Below, piece after piece: positions 9,639 to 31,934 of a stretch of 37,989 nucleotides of DNA. A program made the position numbers and the translations under genes. Under the pieces are notes generated by a model. That model saw only the letters and a list, made by a program, of their open reading frames with translations. It ran no database searches and was not told the origin of the DNA. Source of the stretch: a virus. Numbering within the stretch: the first letter of the stretch is position 1; the number at the start of each line of letters is the position of its first letter. Where the stretch lies: IMG/VR virus record IMGVR_UViG_3300005294_000850, positions 1 to 37,989 of that record; one strand, written 5' to 3'.

Positions 9639-9677
9639 CCTCCAACGATCCCCGCGCGGAATGTGGTAGAATTGCAA

Positions 9678-9779
9678 TTGCTGAGGGTGTTCGTGTATTT
9701 TTATTTGTCCGCGGAATGCCGCTATTAATGGAATGCACGAGCCCCTCAGCAAGGCAAGGACAAACCATTGATAGCGGCA
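9678..9779 (+). ncRNA. Structured RNA candidate with three crossing helices (A-B-C-A'-B'-C')
   Basis: It sits in the 163-nt gap before the ParB-methyltransferase gene. Helix A: TTGCTGAGGG 9678-9687 with CCCTCAGCAA 9743-9752, extended inside by 9690-9696 with 9735-9741. Helix B: TTTGTCC 9704-9710 with GGACAAA 9758-9764. Helix C: TGCCGCTATTAATGG 9717-9731 with CCATTGATAGCGGCA 9765-9779. The single irregular pair in C (T9726-G9770) is a G-U wobble in a plus-strand RNA but an A-C mismatch on the other strand, which favours a plus-strand transcript. A crosses B and C, so it is at least a pseudoknot. B and C also cross each other, so they may be alternatives. Confidence 0.6.
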
Positions 9780-9801
9780 CTTTGCGTTTAAGGAATGAGC
9801 A

Positions 9802-11031
9802 ATGAAGAATCAAATAAAAGAAATCAAACTGTCTGAAATCATCTTGGATAAAAAAGCCCAGCCCCGCGCAGACGTAGACGGCAAGGTCATTGATGAATAC
9901 CGCGCTGACCTCATGGCTGGCGACACGTTCCCTCCGTTAGTTGTCTTTGCCAATGGAGATGACAAATACTATTTGGCAGATGGTTGGCATCGCTATCATG
10001 CAATGGTCAATCTCAACTCTGACGGTGAGGCTGTTTGTACTGTTCATCATGGCGATTTGCGGGATGCAATTCTTTATAGTTGCGGTGTAAATACAGATCA
10101 CGGAAAACGTCGAACTGAGGGTGATAAGCGCCGAGCAATTAAACGACTATTGCAAGATGATGAATGGGTGAAGTGGTCGAACAGAGAGATTCTTAGGAAT
10201 TGCAAGATACCGTATGGGGGTAGTTGGAACTCATTCATTGAGAGTGAGAGAAAAAATCTCACTGCACCTGCAGGTGCAGTGACAACCGAGCGACAGTACA
10301 CCACAAAGCACGGCACGGTTTCCACAATGAACACTTCCAACATCGGCAGCAACAGCAAAACCGCAGAATCAGAATCAGAGCAACCCACGTTTCAAGTAAT
10401 CACCGAACAACCAGAGCCAGCATTCTCACCACTGAATTACCAGTTATTTGTCAGTCCGATAAATGAACTTAGAGAACATCTTCCGCCCGCCTCAGTAGAT
10501 GTAATTATTACCGATCCGCCATATCCGAAAGAATACATGCATACGTATTTCGAGTTAGCGGAACAGGCCGCGGAGATTTTGAAACCCAGTGGCGTCCTGG
10601 TTGCTATGTCCGGCCATCCATATATCAAAGAGCTGATTGAAGGAATGTCAAAGTTTTTGAAATTCCATTGGCTTGGATGTTACTACATGCCAACCGGTCC
10701 CCATGCCTCACTTCAACCATACCGAGTATCTGTTTACTGGAAACCGTTGTTGATATTCTGTAAAAACAAATGGCCCAATCGAGTATTCAAGGATGTATTT
10801 ATCAACAATGAGGCAGATAAAGATTTTCATCATTGGGGACAAGGCGTTGGAGGATTTGAGGAAATTGTCAATGCGTTCACGTTCCCAAATGAAACTGTGC
10901 TTGATCCATTTGTTGGAGGTGGCGCAACTGCTATCGCTACATTGAAAAACGGACGGTATTTTATTGGCTCAGACATTAGCACCGATGAAGTAGAGAAGAC
11001 TCGTAAGAGAATCGTTGAGGTGGTCAAATGA
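9802..11031 (+). CDS. ParB-like domain fused to DNA methyltransferase
   Basis: A 409-residue fusion. Residues 1-110 form a ParB/Srx-type domain (KLSEIILDKKAQPR, YLADGWHRYHAM with D60-G-W-H-R). Residues about 110-150 contain a possible HTH (KRRAIKRLLQDDEWVKWSNREIL). A low-complexity Ser/Thr/Glu linker (about 153-205) follows, then a methyltransferase with IITD-P-P-Y at about 238-241 and LDPFVGGGATAIA at about 366. DPPY suggests N6-adenine or N4-cytosine methylation. ParB domains bind DNA and in some families bind CTP. AAGGA lies before the ATG and an RNA-like element just upstream. The stop overlaps the next start (ATGA). Confidence 0.85.
   Translation: MKNQIKEIKLSEIILDKKAQPRADVDGKVIDEYRADLMAGDTFPPLVVFANGDDKYYLADGWHRYHAMVNLNSDGEAVCTVHHGDLRDAILYSCGVNTDHGKRRTEGDKRRAIKRLLQDDEWVKWSNREILRNCKIPYGGSWNSFIESERKNLTAPAGAVTTERQYTTKHGTVSTMNTSNIGSNSKTAESESEQPTFQVITEQPEPAFSPLNYQLFVSPINELREHLPPASVDVIITDPPYPKEYMHTYFELAEQAAEILKPSGVLVAMSGHPYIKELIEGMSKFLKFHWLGCYYMPTGPHASLQPYRVSVYWKPLLIFCKNKWPNRVFKDVFINNEADKDFHHWGQGVGGFEEIVNAFTFPNETVLDPFVGGGATAIATLKNGRYFIGSDISTDEVEKTRKRIVEVVK
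10259..10282. repeat. Perfect 24-bp palindrome inside a coding region
   Basis: Arms TCACTGCACCTG and CAGGTGCAGTGA abut with no spacer. The palindrome encodes LTAPAGAV at the join between the ParB/HTH part and the linker of the ParB-methyltransferase gene. A perfect 24-bp dyad can extrude as a cruciform and is a likely site for a dimeric DNA-binding protein. It may also mark where the domains were joined. Confidence 0.85.
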
Positions 11032-12946: not shown

Positions 12947-13194
12947 AAAGTGACGAAAGAGTGACTTTACTTCACGCTTTGTCACAAAGTTTCGCATATC
13001 CCTAGAGTAAAAAGGCAGTTGTCAGACAAACCGTGACTTTTTTGACATCAAAAAGTAAAGTATTCTCGGAACCCCCTCGCGTATACAAGACTTTTACTTT
13101 TTTGTGTCATTTGTGTCATTCGTCATTGTTTATGCGAAAAATGTCAGAAGAAGTCAAATTTATTGAAAATCTCATGAATAAGGATGAACAAACT
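12947..13194. other. Non-coding AT-rich gap with repeated GTGAC/GTCAC motifs; possible origin
   Basis: No gene is supported between the helicase stop and the prim-pol fragment, although the frame stays open from 13033. The stretch repeats GTGAC and GTCAC (12950, 12961, 12981, 13033) and GTGACTTT-like units. Its second half has AAAAAGTAAA 13050-13059 inversely repeated as TTTACTTTTT 13093-13102, then three TCATT-type repeats at 13106-13127. Repeats beside a replicative helicase and primase suit an origin, but this is inference. Confidence 0.3.
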
Positions 13195-13332
13195 ATGACA
13201 AAACATGACTTTATAAGACAATTTGCTAATTTAGGTATCGCCATGATCCCATTACGACATCGGGGCAAGGAACCGATGTTGCCATCGTGGGAACCATTCC
13301 AAACCCGGCTACCCAGTGATACTGAGTATAAG
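13195..13332 (+). pseudogene. 5' fragment of a prim-pol primase gene
   Basis: The first 46 or so codons from the ATG at 13195 (AAGGATG upstream) encode FIRQFANLGIAMIPLRHRGK, then EPMLPSWEPFQTRLPSDTEY. They align residue for residue with the first 46 of the complete prim-pol at 14029 (FAMQFLELGVSVIPLYHRSK, NPLLISWEPYKTKLSADLEI), roughly half identical. Similarity ends abruptly at DTEY, where the DNA is a copy of the dispersed palindrome (13319-13329). The structured element and HNH gene follow in the same open frame. It is therefore a truncated, diverged duplicate of the primase 5' end, probably broken by the HNH-bearing insertion. Confidence 0.75.
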
Positions 13333-13348
13333 ATTTGTGATACAATAA

Positions 13349-13462
13349 TTTTGTCTAGGGAACGTGGGCTTTTTCTTTTCTCGCCCGCATATAGCCGTCA
13401 TTCTGTTTTAAGTTCGCGTTCCCTAGACAAGAACCGGGCGAGGCAGGATGGCGGCTATATGC
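13349..13462 (+). ncRNA. Structured RNA candidate upstream of the HNH gene (A-B-C-A'-B'-C')
   Basis: Helix A: 13349-13370 with 13411-13432, 22 bp whose core TTGTCTAGGGAACG / CGTTCCCTAGACAA is perfect, with four G-U pairs. Helix B: CTCGCCCG 13380-13387 with CGGGCGAG 13435-13442. Helix C: 13387-13405 with 13444-13462, 19 bp with two G-U pairs. All six wobble pairs work only in a plus-strand RNA. B and C lie in the A loop and their partners follow A' in the same order, exactly the topology of the element at 9678-9779. C' ends directly against the ribosome site (TTGGAG, 13463-13468) of the HNH gene, so folding could control its translation. Confidence 0.7.
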
Positions 13463-13473
13463 TTGGAGTAACA

Positions 13474-14025
13474 ATGTTAAAGCAATGTACACAATGTAGA
13501 AGGTGGAAACTAAGAAGTGAATTTCATAAGCGCGAAGAAAGTCCTGATGGTCTGAAGCCAATCTGTAAGGAATGTAGAAAGTCAGTTGAGAAATCATACA
13601 ATACTGAATATCATCAAAACCATAAAGAAGAATTTCGCGAAAGAAATCGAAACTGGCGTTTAAACAACAAAGAAAAAGCTGATGAATGGATGCTTGCATA
13701 CAGAGCCGAAAACAAAGATAAAGTAAGTGAATGGAATCGAAGGTATCGTGCGGCTCATCCCGAAAAAGTTCAAGAATATACTCATAATCGTTATGCTCGT
13801 AAAAAGTCTAATGGCGGCAATGTAACTGCTGAGCAATGGGAAATGCTCAAGCAGGAATATAACTATACTTGCTTGCAATGCGGACAACAAGAGCCTGAAA
13901 TCAAATTGACAATGGATCATGTGTTACCACTAAAACTTGGTGGTAAACATGAAATAGAGAACATTCAACCACTCTGCGGGAATTGTAATTCTAGCAAGCA
14001 AGACAAACACATTGATTATAGGTGA
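13474..14025 (+). CDS. HNH homing-type endonuclease
   Basis: A 183-residue protein from the ATG at 13474 with TTGGAG 5 nt upstream. The N-terminus has a zinc ribbon (CTQCRRWKLRSEF ... CKECRKS). A basic, repetitive helical middle follows (YHQNHKEEFRERNRNW, YRAENKDKVSEWNRRYRAAH). The HNH nuclease is at the C-terminus: CLQCGQQ ... MDHVLPLKLGG ... ENIQPLCGNCNSSK, with both CxxC pairs of the treble-clef zinc site and the D-H catalytic pair. Such genes are typical free-standing homing endonucleases of phages. The frame is open back to 13033, so a fusion with the primase fragment could in principle be made. It has no RuvC or PLMP-like motif, so it is not IscB. Confidence 0.88.
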   Translation: MLKQCTQCRRWKLRSEFHKREESPDGLKPICKECRKSVEKSYNTEYHQNHKEEFRERNRNWRLNNKEKADEWMLAYRAENKDKVSEWNRRYRAAHPEKVQEYTHNRYARKKSNGGNVTAEQWEMLKQEYNYTCLQCGQQEPEIKLTMDHVLPLKLGGKHEIENIQPLCGNCNSSKQDKHIDYR

Positions 14026-14028
14026 AAC

Positions 14029-14934
14029 ATGGCAAAGATATTTGATTTCGCTATGCAGTTTTTGGAATTAGGAGTTTCTGTTATTCCGCTTTATCACCGA
14101 AGTAAGAACCCTTTGCTTATCAGTTGGGAACCATATAAAACAAAACTTTCTGCTGACCTTGAAATACGTCAGTGGTTTCCCACTGACTGGAATAACTACG
14201 GCGTAGTGGCTGGATGGCAAAACTTGGTCATCATTGATTTTGATGACATTGAATACTTCAACCTATGGCAGTTATGGTGTGGCACTCAGGATAGCGACGT
14301 TCAATACATAGCTGAGCGATCCTTCAAGGTTCTGACACGGCGAGGAATACATGTGTATCTGATGACTGATAAACCTGCAAGTAACAGCAAGCGAATTGCC
14401 AAGAAAGGCGGCATTGATATTCAGGCACAAGGCAAATATGTTGTGGGTCCTGGTTGTGTGCATCCATCAGGACATGTGTATGAGCCGACTGGTGATTTTA
14501 TTTTTCCGATTGTGCCTGACATCGAATCCATTATGCCATTGGATCTGTTTCCACCTGTGGCAATTAGTGATGTGGAATTTCACGGTGAACCTCCGGTGAT
14601 CGTGCCGATGGTTACTCAGTATGATGCTTTTGCAGCAGCATCGGTTGCATCGGATGTTGATCTGATTTCTAAAGTCAAACAGTCAGTGCGGATTGAAAAT
14701 CTTTTCAGTGGTGTTCAAAAAAGTGGTGTTGATGGTCGGTGGTTGAAAGCATTATGCCCGTTTCATGACGATGCCCATCCATCGTTTTGGATTGACACTC
14801 GCAAGCAGTTGTGTGGTTGCAATGTATGCGGAATGAAGCCGATGGATGCTATCAATCTATATTCACGAATGCACAACATCAGTGAGAGCCTGGCTGTGAG
14901 TGAGTTGGCTCGGGAGGTGGGAGTATGGGGATGA
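14029..14934 (+). CDS. Prim-pol (AEP) DNA primase with CHC2-like zinc finger
   Basis: A 301-residue protein. The N-terminal bifunctional primase-polymerase domain has the family opening (FAMQFLELGVSVIPLYHRSKNPL), the metal-binding IID70-F-D72-D (about 68-73), a helical segment, and GIDIQAQGKYVVGPGCVHPSG (about 129-149). A C-terminal CHC2-type zinc finger lies near residues 243-268 (LCPFHDDAHPSF, then CGCNVCG). It would lay down primers for the D5-type helicase upstream. It begins 3 nt after the HNH gene and is complete, unlike the truncated copy at 13195. Palindrome copy at 14612-14622 encodes TQYD. Confidence 0.88.
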   Translation: MAKIFDFAMQFLELGVSVIPLYHRSKNPLLISWEPYKTKLSADLEIRQWFPTDWNNYGVVAGWQNLVIIDFDDIEYFNLWQLWCGTQDSDVQYIAERSFKVLTRRGIHVYLMTDKPASNSKRIAKKGGIDIQAQGKYVVGPGCVHPSGHVYEPTGDFIFPIVPDIESIMPLDLFPPVAISDVEFHGEPPVIVPMVTQYDAFAAASVASDVDLISKVKQSVRIENLFSGVQKSGVDGRWLKALCPFHDDAHPSFWIDTRKQLCGCNVCGMKPMDAINLYSRMHNISESLAVSELAREVGVWG

Positions 14935-20446: not shown

Positions 20447-21147
20447 CACTTCCGATTAGCATCACGCCGAATCCAAGTGAACCCGTGAAGCCTATTACTT
20501 TGCGTCGCGTTCGCAAGTGGGGCGATCCTGTGATGATTCAATACGGTTTCAATGTGAATGTTGTTGGTACAAGCAATTTTCAGGCAGTGCGAAGTTTCAA
20601 CAAGGAAACCGGATTCGGTGCGGTAAGCAATTTTCTTTACATACCACACAACGAGGTAATGCTTTTGCGTGATATGCAATTTGCAGAAATTACAGAACGC
20701 GGTTATTTCGATGAAGATTCTAAAATGGAGTGGCTATGTAGTTGGCGCGGTTCGTTGTATATGTACAACAGTCAAGCCGACGAATGGCCTACCGCAAAAA
20801 CCATACGTTGGGGCACGCTGACACTTGGGGGCAATCTTGTACAAGTAGAAAGATACGAAGTCATTCGTTATGTGTTCGGAACAAATTACGAGGAGAAAAC
20901 CATTCGTGATGTGCCAATGGCGCGGCTTGTAGGGTTTAGAAAATCAGATTGGTCAAGACCATTAAACGATTTGATTTCAGAAGGACTTGTACACTATTGC
21001 TATTGCGCGTACAAAGATAATGGTTTTGGACATTCGCCGAAGGGAGTTGTTTATAGTCCATTCTATTCGCCGTTGGATTATGACTTTAGTGGAAATTTGC
21101 AACCCGACGCATTGTATATTCCTGAGATATGGTTAGAGAATGAGTGA
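20443..21147 (+). CDS. Hypothetical protein between endolysin and terminase
   Basis: A 234-residue soluble protein, rich in Tyr and Trp and probably beta-rich (QAVRSFNKETGFGAVSNFLY, TIRWGTLTLGGNLVQVERYE). No family recognised. It overlaps the endolysin by 4 nt and the terminase by 8 nt, so it is translated with both. It could be a virion or wall-interaction protein; nothing in the sequence decides. Confidence 0.65.
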   Translation: MTLPISITPNPSEPVKPITLRRVRKWGDPVMIQYGFNVNVVGTSNFQAVRSFNKETGFGAVSNFLYIPHNEVMLLRDMQFAEITERGYFDEDSKMEWLCSWRGSLYMYNSQADEWPTAKTIRWGTLTLGGNLVQVERYEVIRYVFGTNYEEKTIRDVPMARLVGFRKSDWSRPLNDLISEGLVHYCYCAYKDNGFGHSPKGVVYSPFYSPLDYDFSGNLQPDALYIPEIWLENE

Positions 21148-22915
21148 CGAACAGGAACTCAAACCACTTTCTGATAAGCACCGACGTGTTATGGATGCGT
21201 ACCTTTTGTGCTGGAAAAAAGGCGATGCATATCGGGAGGTGTACGGTCCTAAGGGTGACTCTGGAGCCGCAACCAAGTTATTTAAGGATCCGAATTTCGC
21301 TGCGCATCTTTCAGCGCGACTGGATGAGGTGCACTTATCGGCAGACGAGGCGCTGAAACTACTCGCCGATATTGCACGTGGTGATCTGGGTGATTTCCTA
21401 AAAATCACTAAGGATGGTTTTGAATTGGACTTGAAGAAGGCCAAAGAAAAGACCAGGCTTATCAAACGAATCAAGAACAAAACTACTAAGATTAATGGTC
21501 CACGGATTGATAGAGAAATTCACACGGAAGAAATAGAGCTGTACAGTGCTTTGGATGCGTTGGATAAAGTGCTCCGTGTGCATGGTCGGTACAACGACAC
21601 GCTGAACCTGAATACATCCGGCGCAACGGTGCAACCACAAACCTTTGTCATTCCCGCGGATAAGATAGCCCCAAGTTTTACCAATGTTTATAGGGACATC
21701 GTTCACAAGCGCCATACTGAGTATATTTTCAAAGGTGGACGCGGTTCAGCAAAATCTAGCTTTGTCTCAGAAGCGTTTATTTACCTGCTTGTCAACAATC
21801 CGCAAGTTCACGGTTTGGCGCTTCGTCAAGTCGCCGATACTTTAAGAGATAGCGTTTTCGCTCAATTGCAATGGGCTGTGAGTGAGTTGGGATTGGGAGA
21901 CCAATTTAAGTCGACCCTTTCCCCGATGGAGATCGAATACCTCCCCACGGGGCAGAAAATTTATTTCCGTGGCGCGGACGATCCGGGGAAAATTAAATCC
22001 ATCACTCCGACATTTGGCTATATCGGTATCGTCTGGTTTGAAGAATTAGACCAGTTCCGAGGACAGAATGCCATCCGGGTAGTGGAGCAATCCATCCGAG
22101 GTGGGGATGAGATTTATTATCTAAAGAGTTTCAACCCACCGGCGACCAAGAGCAATTGGGCGAATAAGTATCTTGAAATTCCAAAGGATACTCAGTATGT
22201 GCATAGCAGTACGTATCTGGACGTTCCCCCGGAATGGTTAGGTCGCACGTGGCTTGATGAAGCCGAACATCTCAAAGCGACAAACTTTGAAGCCTACAAA
22301 AACGAGTACCTTGGCGAAACGACCAATGATAGTGGCATGGTGTTTGCCAATGTAAAGGTGCGCGATATTACCGACGAAGAAATCAGTCAATTCGATTACG
22401 TCCTTCATGGCCTGGATTGGGGCTTTTATCCCGATCCCGCGAGTTATGGCAGAATGCATTACGACGCGGCAAGGCGAACACTGTATATCTATGGGGAAGG
22501 TAGGCACTATAAAAAGTCAAACGAAGATTTGTTTAATACGCTGGTTGAAGATAGTTTAATTCGCAAGTTGGAATACGGCGAGGGTAAGAAAAAAGAAGTC
22601 TCTTACCCCGACCTAATCATTGCTGATAGCGCGGAGCCTAAATCAGTTGGTGACTTCAAAGCCTATGGTGCAAATATTCGAGGCGCTGAGAAGGGACCAG
22701 AATCACGGAAATATTCTTACAAATGGCTGCAAGGTCTTACGGCAATAATCATTGACCAAAAACGCGCTCCCTATCATGCAGAAGAATTCTTAAACTGCGA
22801 GTATGAACGCACGAAAGACGGTGAGATTATCAGTGAATATCCTGCGAAGAACGATCATGCAATTGATGATACCCGTTATGCGACAAATCTAATTTGGAAA
22901 CGACGAGGCGAGTAA
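21140..22915 (+). CDS. Terminase large subunit with N-terminal small-terminase-like region
   Basis: A 591-residue protein. Residues about 8-150 resemble a phage terminase small subunit (LSDKHRRVMDAYLLCWKKGDAYREVYG ... GAATKLFKDPNFAAHL, DEALKLLADIARGDLGDFLKI, ALDALDKVLRVHGRY). The large subunit follows: FKGGRGSAKSSF Walker A at about 196-206, Walker B IGIVWFEELDQF at about 294-305, ATPase coupling SFNPP, then nuclease acidic residues in HGLDWGFYPDPASY, IIADSAEP and NDHAIDDTRYA. This is the PBSX-type terminase that cuts and packages DNA. No separate small-subunit gene is seen, so the fusion may supply DNA recognition. Palindrome copies at 21714-21724 and 22188-22198. Confidence 0.92.
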   Translation: MSDEQELKPLSDKHRRVMDAYLLCWKKGDAYREVYGPKGDSGAATKLFKDPNFAAHLSARLDEVHLSADEALKLLADIARGDLGDFLKITKDGFELDLKKAKEKTRLIKRIKNKTTKINGPRIDREIHTEEIELYSALDALDKVLRVHGRYNDTLNLNTSGATVQPQTFVIPADKIAPSFTNVYRDIVHKRHTEYIFKGGRGSAKSSFVSEAFIYLLVNNPQVHGLALRQVADTLRDSVFAQLQWAVSELGLGDQFKSTLSPMEIEYLPTGQKIYFRGADDPGKIKSITPTFGYIGIVWFEELDQFRGQNAIRVVEQSIRGGDEIYYLKSFNPPATKSNWANKYLEIPKDTQYVHSSTYLDVPPEWLGRTWLDEAEHLKATNFEAYKNEYLGETTNDSGMVFANVKVRDITDEEISQFDYVLHGLDWGFYPDPASYGRMHYDAARRTLYIYGEGRHYKKSNEDLFNTLVEDSLIRKLEYGEGKKKEVSYPDLIIADSAEPKSVGDFKAYGANIRGAEKGPESRKYSYKWLQGLTAIIIDQKRAPYHAEEFLNCEYERTKDGEIISEYPAKNDHAIDDTRYATNLIWKRRGE

Positions 22916-26255: not shown

Positions 26256-26342
26256 AAACTTCGCCTGACCAGCGTAACGGGTCAAACACACGAGGAGCGA
26301 CCTCGTACAAAAAGCGTAGTGAAAGGCAAACAGGTAAATATT
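26256..26342 (+). promoter_or_regulatory. Leader of the scaffold/capsid genes with two short hairpins
   Basis: No gene is supported here. TGACC 26266-26270 pairs with GGTCA 26280-26284, and ACGAGG 26290-26295 pairs with CCTCGT 26301-26306. They may extend the structured leader that begins at 26130. AGGTAAA near 26330 serves as ribosome site for the scaffold gene. Confidence 0.4.
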
Positions 26343-26930: not shown

Positions 26931-27827
26931 ATGGCAAACTCTGTTTCACTTGTAAGTAAATTTCTGGCACTCATCGACGCGGCATACAAAGCCATGTCGA
27001 AAACTGCCGTTTTGGATGCGATCACCCAGTCGCCGGATTATCTCGGCGCAAACGAAGTCAAGGTGATGAAGCTCAGTATGGTGGGTCTGGGCAACTACTC
27101 CCGCTCTACTGGCTATCCTGCTGGCGATCTGACCGCCGCATGGGAAACGATGACCCTGGCAACCGAACGTGGTCGTGCATTCACCCTGGACCGCATGGAT
27201 AACGAAGAAATGCTTGGGCTTGTTCTGGGTAATCTCGTTGCGGAGTGGATGCGTATGCACGTTTCTCCTGAATTGGATGCGTACCGCTTCTCGAAATATG
27301 CCAGTTTTTCCGGCATCAGTGAAGTGGGCACACCTGCAACACTGTCAAATTCCACGGTGCTGGCTGCAATTGATGTTGCCACTGGGCAGATGAACGCAGA
27401 TGAAGTACCGGAAGATGGACGGATCCTCTTTGTGTCCGATACCGTGCAAACGTTTCTTGATCAAGCGGTAACTCGTTCGATGAACAACAATGAAACCACT
27501 GTTGTACGGCAAACGAGAAACTATAACAACATGCAGGTCATCATGGTGCCACAGACCCGGTTTTATAAGGGCATTACCCTGAACGCGGGCGCGACCAGTT
27601 CCGCGGGTGGATTTGTGAAAACCGCAAGCACTGGCCGGGACATTAATTTCCTGATGGTGCATCCCTCTGCTGTACTTCAACCGGTCAAGCTCAATCAGGT
27701 GAAATATTTCCCCCCCGAAGTAAATCAGATCAGTGACGGGCATCTCTGGCAGTATCGCCTCTATCACGATACGTTCGTGTACGAAAACCATGTTGATGGT
27801 GTGTACTCGCACATCAAGGCAAGCTAG
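26931..27827 (+). CDS. Major capsid protein
   Basis: A 298-residue protein preceded by AAGGA. Its position after the scaffold gene and before small head genes, its length, and segments such as TLATERGRAFTLDRMDNEEM, RILFVSDTVQTFLDQ, RNYNNMQVIMVPQTRFY and FLMVHPSAVLQPVKLNQVKYFPPE are those of HK97-fold capsid proteins of siphophages, the last resembling the P-domain/A-domain end region. It forms the icosahedral shell. I cannot assign a subfamily. Confidence 0.88.
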   Translation: MANSVSLVSKFLALIDAAYKAMSKTAVLDAITQSPDYLGANEVKVMKLSMVGLGNYSRSTGYPAGDLTAAWETMTLATERGRAFTLDRMDNEEMLGLVLGNLVAEWMRMHVSPELDAYRFSKYASFSGISEVGTPATLSNSTVLAAIDVATGQMNADEVPEDGRILFVSDTVQTFLDQAVTRSMNNNETTVVRQTRNYNNMQVIMVPQTRFYKGITLNAGATSSAGGFVKTASTGRDINFLMVHPSAVLQPVKLNQVKYFPPEVNQISDGHLWQYRLYHDTFVYENHVDGVYSHIKAS

Positions 27828-30913: not shown

Positions 30914-31341
30914 TCGATTCATTGCAGATCAATACTGGTGAAAAGCGAATCCCTATCGTGCGTGATGGTGAAAGCGTGGGCGAAATTGTTTTCAATCCGT
31001 CGGATGTGGTTTGGGTTGAAAGGTTTTACAAAATAGTCTCTGAGTTTCAAATCACGCTCACAGACTACCAGACCCGTTATAAGGCTCTTGAAAAAGACAA
31101 AGACGGTAAGCCTGTACAAGTGGATGTATCTTTAGCATTGCTGCATGATGCTTGTACCTATGTCAGAGAGAAAATTGATTATGTGTTCGGCTCGGGAACA
31201 TCACAACTTGTTTTTGGTGACGCAATGGTGATCGAAGTGTTCCCCCAATTCTTTGATGGCATTACGCCGCATATAAAAACCGTGCGTGCCGAAAAAATTG
31301 AGAAGTACACAGGCAAGCAACGCAAGAGAGTTTTGAAATAA
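30910..31341 (+). CDS. Tail assembly chaperone (upstream partner)
   Basis: A 143-residue protein with no strong motif, but size, place (after the tube, before a Gp15-like gene and the tape measure) and pattern (KRIPIVRDGESVGEIVFNPS, then a helical VERFYKIVSEFQITLTDYQT and YVREKIDYVFGSGTSQLVFGD) fit the first of the two tail assembly chaperones. In many phages the two are linked by a frameshift. Here the downstream gene is in the -1 frame, but that frame has a TGA at 31299, so a shift at the A6 run (31292-31297) would stop at once. Confidence 0.75.
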   Translation: MIDSLQINTGEKRIPIVRDGESVGEIVFNPSDVVWVERFYKIVSEFQITLTDYQTRYKALEKDKDGKPVQVDVSLALLHDACTYVREKIDYVFGSGTSQLVFGDAMVIEVFPQFFDGITPHIKTVRAEKIEKYTGKQRKRVLK

Positions 31342-31934
31342 ACATCCTCACCGAATCTCCACCTGATAGCGTTGAGATAAACCATACTGAGTATAAGGTT
31401 GTCTCCGATTTTAGAACTTGCTTGCGAATCATTTTAGCCTTTGAAGATGAAGAATTAACTCCGCAAGAAAAGCAAGTAATTTTACTCAGTATGTTGTATC
31501 CCATTATTCCTCCTGATGCTCAAGAGGCAATCAAGAAAGCAAATTTATTCTTGAGTGGTGGCAGGATCAATGAAGAAGATGAATCAGAACCCATGCGTCT
31601 GTACTCGTTTAGCAAGGACGCAAATTTTATTTATGCGGCGTTCAAACAAACACATGGAGTTGATTTGCAAACCGCTAAGTTGCATTGGTGGCAATTTCTG
31701 GCTCTGTTTATGGATCTAGGTCAGGACACGACCTTTTGCCAACTCGTAGGACTTCGCAAGCGGTTGCGTACAGGCAAAGCCACGAAAGAAGAACGCGCCG
31801 CCGCGCGTGAAATGGGAGAAATGATAGATCTCCCCGAATTAGATAACCGCACATTTGAAGAAAAGGAAATGGCGTTGGAATTCGAGCGCAAAGTTGAAGA
31901 GGCGCGTCTAAAAAGGTTAAGCAATAATGTCTGA
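31338..31934 (+). CDS. Gp15-like tail assembly chaperone, apparent ATA start
   Basis: About 198 residues if it starts at 31338. The conserved Gp15 opening (NILTESPPDSVEI, then EYKVVSDFRTCLRIILAFED) is in frame from 31341, and the only codon in the normal place is ATA at 31338, overlapping the previous TAA as ATAA. AAGAGAG lies 7 nt upstream. A TTG at 31422 would remove 28 conserved residues and has no ribosome site. An ATG-to-ATA change would also convert a TGA stop into TAA, which fits a single substitution. The C-terminal part (KLHWWQFLALFMDLGQDTTF, then REMGEMIDLPE) is typical Gp15. It overlaps the tape measure by 8 nt. Confidence 0.75.
   Translation: MNILTESPPDSVEINHTEYKVVSDFRTCLRIILAFEDEELTPQEKQVILLSMLYPIIPPDAQEAIKKANLFLSGGRINEEDESEPMRLYSFSKDANFIYAAFKQTHGVDLQTAKLHWWQFLALFMDLGQDTTFCQLVGLRKRLRTGKATKEERAAAREMGEMIDLPELDNRTFEEKEMALEFERKVEEARLKRLSNNV

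Follow-up and report, generated by a model that had tools for sequence, protein, structure and literature searches.

The window analysed here, the whole 37,989-nucleotide stretch of the viral metagenome record IMGVR_UViG_3300005294_000850, carries an HNH endonuclease gene that is preceded by a structured element, element 2, at positions 13349-13462. A second element, element 1, lies at 9678-9786 in front of a gene that encodes a ParB-like domain and a DNA methyltransferase. In both elements three helices, A, B and C, follow each other in the crossing order A-B-C-A'-B'-C' (Table 1). This topology had been claimed for both places in the preliminary description and was found at both. For element 2 it was far beyond the shuffled controls: the crossing pair A+C scored 45.1, against 29.6 for the top of 60 dinucleotide shuffles of the entire window. 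The top three ungapped inverted repeats of the window were helix A of element 2, helix C of element 2 and helix C of element 1. The last strand of element 2 had been described as adjoining the Shine-Dalgarno sequence of the HNH gene, and GGAG indeed follows 2 nt after the final paired base. All of its G-U pairs, said to be six, had been reported to favour the plus strand; the direction was correct for all wobbles of A and C, but we counted five. In element 1, five of the six wobbles favour the plus strand. The primary sequences of the two elements differ, as had been stated, with 49% identity in the paired blocks, but they are not unrelated: both belong to one family, within which they have diverged, and have motifs in common with the other members described below. 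At 31321-31500, a possible third crossing pair scored no better than chance in the comparison with shuffles.

Table 1. Coordinates of the features of the two elements and of the neighbouring genes in the window
Feature	Positions	Strand	Remark
Extended -10-like box TG-G-TAGAAT, element 1	9664-9672	+	promoter spacing
Helix A 5' arm, element 1	9678-9699	+	single-base bulge at 9688
Helix B 5' arm, element 1	9704-9710	+	pairs with 9758-9764
Helix C 5' arm, element 1	9711-9731	+	pairs with 9765-9785
Helix A 3' arm, element 1	9732-9752	+	pairs with 9678-9699
Helix B 3' arm, element 1	9758-9764	+	pairs with 9704-9710
Helix C 3' arm, element 1	9765-9785	+	then Shine-Dalgarno AAGGA at 9790
Gene 3' of element 1	9802-11031	+	ParB-like domain and DNA methyltransferase, 409 aa; not an HNH/GIY-YIG endonuclease
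Second prim-pol gene, truncated to an N-terminal fragment	13198-13332	+	42 aa aligned with the intact prim-pol at 14029, 52% identical
Extended -10-like box TG-A-TACAAT, element 2	13338-13346	+	-10-like hexamer at family spacing
Helix A 5' arm, element 2	13351-13371	+	12/14 aligned pairs covary
Invariant G that opens the helix A core, predicted transcription start	13353	+	-10 spacing; pair 1 is G-C in 11/11
Linker L1, pyrimidine-rich	13372-13379	+	U-rich in most members
Helix B 5' arm, element 2	13380-13387	+	final base common to B and C; 6/6 aligned pairs covary
Helix C 5' arm, element 2	13387-13405	+	conserved AGCCGYYA core; 13/19 aligned pairs covary
Helix A 3' arm, element 2	13410-13430	+	pairs with 13351-13371
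Helix B 3' arm, element 2	13435-13442	+	pairs with 13380-13387
Helix C 3' arm, element 2	13444-13462	+	pairs with 13387-13405; ends 2 nt 5' of Shine-Dalgarno
Shine-Dalgarno GGAG	13465-13468	+	2 nt past last paired base of element 2
HNH endonuclease gene	13474-14025	+	ATG at 13474; 183 aa; PF01844/PF14279; phrog_1035 endonuclease VII

A search for the same topology beside HNH genes of other phages had been suggested; it yielded new members, and the topology was conserved in these homologues. An HNH alignment gave 80 viral loci, which were scanned for the crossing helices. They were found directly 5' of the HNH genes at L017, L019 and L020, with a looser fit at L025 and L029. Reading of whole contigs added L176 (18976-19077) and L183, a DNA pattern of helix C detected L264 without any protein information, and a pattern combining the -10 box with the helix C core detected L420, L422 and two elements on L423. 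The covariance model R1 was made of helix C plus sequence. With this model the known core members reached 59-106 bits and other matches 37 bits or less, and one further member, L448 (G814:11987-12103), was returned with 55 bits on the L423 contig. L448 has helices A and B and a correctly spaced -10 box and is followed by an HNH_3 gene. Since helices A and B are absent from the structure of R1, L448 is an out-of-sample confirmation of the family. Five candidates (L020 1554-1664, L176 minus strand 8357, L236, L196 and L186) were excluded because they had no promoter spacing or were terminator-like.

The family thus comprises 12 core members, spread over 8 viral contigs, and three looser variants (L025, L029 and L183); ten of the core members and the three variants come from phages other than that of the window, and every member is of metagenomic origin. 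The closest relative of element 1 is L423a (72% identity) and that of element 2 is L176a (65%), and the leaders of one phage are mostly not each other's nearest relatives. A second viral metagenome record was identical to the window over the compared stretch, and scans of viral contigs with single proteins (HNH, ParB-methyltransferase and helicase) returned only this window-identical contig. Neither the HNH region nor the best family member had a blastn match among cultured phages and plasmids, and the element was absent 5' of the gene in six HNH relatives from cultured phages. When HNH loci were scanned with an alignment for a second time, no additional members appeared, and the conserved pattern of helix C had only chance matches in GTDB genomes. 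When R1 was applied to about 800 genomes of Chloroflexota and of the Clostridia group, two weak matches were obtained, which we judged to be noise; with only 8 candidates scored in each genome, this does not demonstrate absence. Helicase homologues that are 44-45% identical come from the phylum to which an Anaerolineae genome belongs, presumably Chloroflexota; no leader was seen in twelve stretches around Chloroflexota helicase homologues.

The pairing was evaluated in structural blocks of 11 members with 39 aligned pairs. Of the 429 cells 98.6% were paired, a percentage that is inflated because the arms of the family were picked partly for their complementarity. Changes on both sides had occurred in 31 of the 39 pairs, namely in 12/14 of helix A, 6/6 of helix B and 13/19 of helix C, so that even B, the shortest of the three, has changed on both sides at all six positions. 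The observed covariation values were reached by none of 500 shuffles. The covariation score was 0.81, compared to 0.26 for the shuffles and at most 0.17 for slid controls, in which 39-49% of the cells were paired. The first pair of helix A was G-C in 11/11 aligned members, and MAFFT without structural guidance brought 14 pairs of helix C into register in 11/11. Read on the plus strand, the wobbles were 32 G-U against 2 A-C (P 7e-8), which is best explained by selection on a plus-strand RNA. Covariation demonstrates the pairing, and not the alternation of B and C in vivo that is proposed below.

Rfam 15 (4227 models) was searched with the whole window and gave a single match at gathering level, GP20-b, elsewhere in the window. 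A permissive Rfam search with elements 1 and 2, L423a and L423b returned only miRNA, RUF1 and snoRNA models below threshold. With 12 core members, three covarying helices, the G-U bias of the plus strand and no Rfam match, the claim of an unrecognised class of phage RNA was borne out. The new RNA family and its gene context are strongly supported, and this three-helix phage RNA of about 110 letters appears to be an undescribed family. The GP20-b match (RF03003, window 26262-26318) was barely above the gathering score and is located 5' of a gene starting at 26931.

All core members have a -10-like hexamer 6 nt (10/12) or 7 nt (2/12) 5' of the invariant G that opens helix A, and 9/12 have the TG of an extended -10 box. 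For L420, L422 and L423a the box was built into the search pattern and cannot count as independent evidence; how far it lies from helix A was unconstrained in all searches. In L025, L029 and L183, which were inspected outside the computed table, the box is found 6 nt before a G. From this spacing we infer that the transcript starts at or beside the first base of helix A, for which energies of about -26 to -34 kcal/mol were calculated in five members. The leader is about 95-115 nt long. On both strands the gaps between B and C are -2 to +3 nt in 12/12 core members. Helix C ends 0-4 nt before purines that resemble a Shine-Dalgarno sequence, a stretch that is weak in L448, and the start codon follows 9-17 nt after C' in all 12. 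The pyrimidines of L1 are complementary to the Shine-Dalgarno/start region in L020, L423b, L420, L017 and L448, but not in element 2; this complementarity, present in about half of the members, exceeds that of swapped leaders (P 0.008).

The HNH frame of the window is open upstream across the leader and the prim-pol fragment (13033-14025, 330 aa), and the frame is also free of stops through the leader in L020, L423a and L423b. Of 11 leaders, 4 are stop-free in the HEG frame, compared with 3 and 1 in the remaining two frames, a difference perhaps due to chance.

Nuclease domains were supported by Pfam in 12 of the 15 downstream genes, and a thirteenth gene is GIY-YIG by motif only. HNH genes stand behind element 2, L017, L019, L020 and L422, HNH_3 genes behind L176a, L420 and L448, and a T5orf172/MUG113 gene behind L423b. 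The L423a gene has the GIY-YIG-like motif, no Pfam match and an AlphaFold pLDDT of 39. Among the looser variants, L025 precedes an HNH_3 gene with an AP2 domain, L183 an HNH_3 gene and L029 an HNH gene. The downstream proteins of the HNH, HNH_3 or GIY-YIG type have 130-280 aa and no RuvC. Two of the 12 core members are followed by genes that do not encode endonucleases: the gene at 9802 behind element 1 and, behind L264, a gene for a 90-aa protein without a Pfam match. The leaders L423a, L423b and L448 lie on one contig, each in front of a different nuclease gene.

The suggestion that the element is mobile together with the endonuclease was borne out in part. The leaders mostly precede endonucleases of several families, and their sequence type is independent of the phage, but two of the 12 core members precede other genes. 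The homology of the prim-pol fragment ends a few bases 5' of the element 2 promoter, and this end may be the left edge of an inserted cassette, with the unit beginning at the promoter. In two related phages, promoter and leader of L264 (minus strand, 2136-2281) and L420 (709-846) are 74% identical and occupy the same locus; the genes directly behind the leader differ and synteny resumes downstream. This locus and the uncoupling of nuclease type from leader type indicate that leader and coding region are separable modules. In the window, an imperfect inverted repeat with A/T runs (13043-13109) lies 5' of the prim-pol fragment and is followed by short TGTCATT repeats, possibly an origin or a terminator. 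A perfect 24-bp palindrome, TCACTGCACCTGCAGGTGCAGTGA, occurs within the ParB-methyltransferase gene at 10259-10282.

Homing endonucleases are costly when mistimed, and phages restrain them. Leaders with an H-type pseudoknot, for example those of ribosomal protein S15 and of T4 gene 32, control translation at the ribosome site. The leaders described here likewise have a pseudoknot beside the ribosome site, but their helices are about 20 bp long, a third helix crosses them and the genes have no common autoregulating protein product. In T4-like phages, the homing endonucleases I-TevI, SegB and MobE have RNA hairpins at their ribosome sites that restrain or time translation, and in Aeromonas phage 25 a very stable hairpin of seg43(25) is located just 5' of, and not over, the ribosome site (PMC2988022). 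Structured RNA at the start of a homing-endonuclease gene is common to both. However, the T4-like structures are single gene-specific hairpins, whereas the present family has three crossing helices and its own promoter and serves HNH, HNH_3/AP2 and GIY-YIG-type genes. In the T4 type the promoter leaves late transcripts without the 5' arm, whereas here it lies upstream of the entire structure. No pseudoknotted leader of a homing endonuclease was found in the open-access literature searched. Structured leaders of such genes are already known; what appears to be new is the family, with its topology and its occurrence in front of unrelated endonucleases.

The formal pairing pattern is that of the ABCABC 'pseudotrefoil', which was represented by 51 surveyed sequences versus 1688 for ABAB, with a mean span of 74 nt (PMC3390330). 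With rigid A-form geometry, helix A (17-22 bp) and the full helix C can be stacked as an H-type pseudoknot, for which the two 13-nt loops reach. When B (6-8 bp) is formed, C (19-21 bp) must open by at least 3-5 bp. As B adjoins C without a linker on both strands, B and the full-length C are mutually exclusive, and with helices of this length the ABCABC pattern describes alternative states. Since B and all of C are kept by covariation, their alternation is the simplest reading.

We propose, at about even probability, that the leader is a conformational switch in the 5'-UTR that governs the translation of mostly homing-endonuclease genes. The dedicated extended -10 promoter would start the transcript at helix A, followed by the leader and then by the gene, usually that of a homing-type endonuclease. 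Two states are predicted, and A would be common to both. In the first, the complete C together with A would form a long H-type pseudoknot and place the AU-rich outer part of C against the Shine-Dalgarno sequence, so that translation would be low. In the second, B would form and C would be open over 3-5 bp or more, most usefully at the AU-rich outer end, which would free the Shine-Dalgarno region for translation. B could form once B' is transcribed, before C', and this might result in an early pulse of endonuclease and then a shutdown. Alternatively, the leader might be shifted by the ribosome or by a general factor. As the nuclease family varies and the RNA remains constant, control by the ribosome or a general factor is favoured, and binding by the encoded endonuclease is unlikely. 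A translational switch had been among the functions offered in the preliminary description and is the best fit of those proposed; it is favoured by the AU-rich end of C at the Shine-Dalgarno sequence and by the L1 complementarity in about half of the members. Still more tentative is the wider idea of a mobile promoter with a pseudotrefoil-type RNA switch that travels with unrelated homing endonucleases and, by its exclusive crossing helices, limits its own pulse of translation.

The main rival, which we regard as somewhat unlikely and which may hold alongside the switch, is that the structure stabilises the 5' end. The first base would be locked in a 20-bp helix and a pseudoknot that block pyrophosphate removal and 5'-dependent decay, and the mRNAs of weakly transcribed cassettes would be preserved. 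A paired 5' end shields bacterial mRNA, and helix A, stable as calculated for the five members, begins, in every one of the 12 core members, at the predicted +1 and always with a G-C pair. However, a plain hairpin would be enough for this, and helix B, the exclusion of C and the end of C at the Shine-Dalgarno sequence are left unexplained. The conservation of the L264 and L420 leaders at one locus in front of different genes suggests instead that the leader may be native to the phage group and is exploited by endonuclease genes. As a native operon leader it would respond to a general signal (a metabolite, temperature, or a phage or host protein), and endonuclease genes would have landed behind it repeatedly, a view to which element 1 lends itself by leading a ParB-methyltransferase gene. 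We consider this unlikely, as a nuclease gene follows 13 of the 15 leaders (12 by Pfam, one by motif), three different nuclease genes follow the three leaders of one contig, and the alignment has no invariant unpaired core of the ligand type.

Transcription attenuation, in which helix C with its U-rich 3' end would be an intrinsic terminator and the formation of A and B would set the read-through, agrees with the GC core of C and the U-rich arm after it. It is very improbable because the U-rich stretch is paired within C with compensatory changes and because the putative loop would have 30-48 nt and contain the strands of helix A. The arms are also inverted repeats at the level of DNA and the cassettes look mobile, as might be expected of a recombination or binding site or a cruciform without RNA function; this is contradicted by the 32 G-U against 2 A-C wobbles and by the strand-specific placement of promoter and gene, and has almost no probability left. 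Hardly better are the prospects of a self-cleaving ribozyme or an omega-like guide RNA used by the endonuclease; the preliminary description had suggested the former and named HEARO/omega RNAs as a loose parallel. Mobile nucleases with companion RNAs do exist (HEARO/IscB, group I introns), and the HEARO/omega RNA of IscB likewise lies upstream of a mobile HNH-bearing gene. Here, however, the structure is unrelated, there is no RuvC/IscB protein, and a single RNA family accompanies nucleases of different families. The alignment has neither an invariant unpaired core nor a variable guide segment, and the transcript is predicted to start in helix A. Neither a ribozyme nor a HEARO model matched at gathering score, and the covariance models of group I introns had no match in the window.

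If the leader is a translational switch that moves with its genes, it would represent a type of RNA switch in which the knot topology differs between the states. One RNA design in front of unrelated endonuclease families would amount to a portable control device, and it is a rare testable RNA, the alternative folds of which exclude each other by geometry and not by overlap of sequence. The regulatory RNA of uncultured phages is a poorly charted area, in which this well-supported family offers a handle for finding mobile cassettes.

Some further features were observed. Tandem 18-bp repeats, TCAATTGGTGCACGGGCT, are present within an open frame at 579-939 of the window; a copy in complementary orientation is found at 579-598. 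The gene at 21140-22915 encodes a protein of 591 aa that matches both the small subunit (phrog_51, residues 4-172) and the large subunit of the terminase and is apparently a fusion. On L037, a long terminator-like hairpin at 459-600 is crossed by a short helix and followed by a sequence that resembles the D arm of tRNA-Leu.
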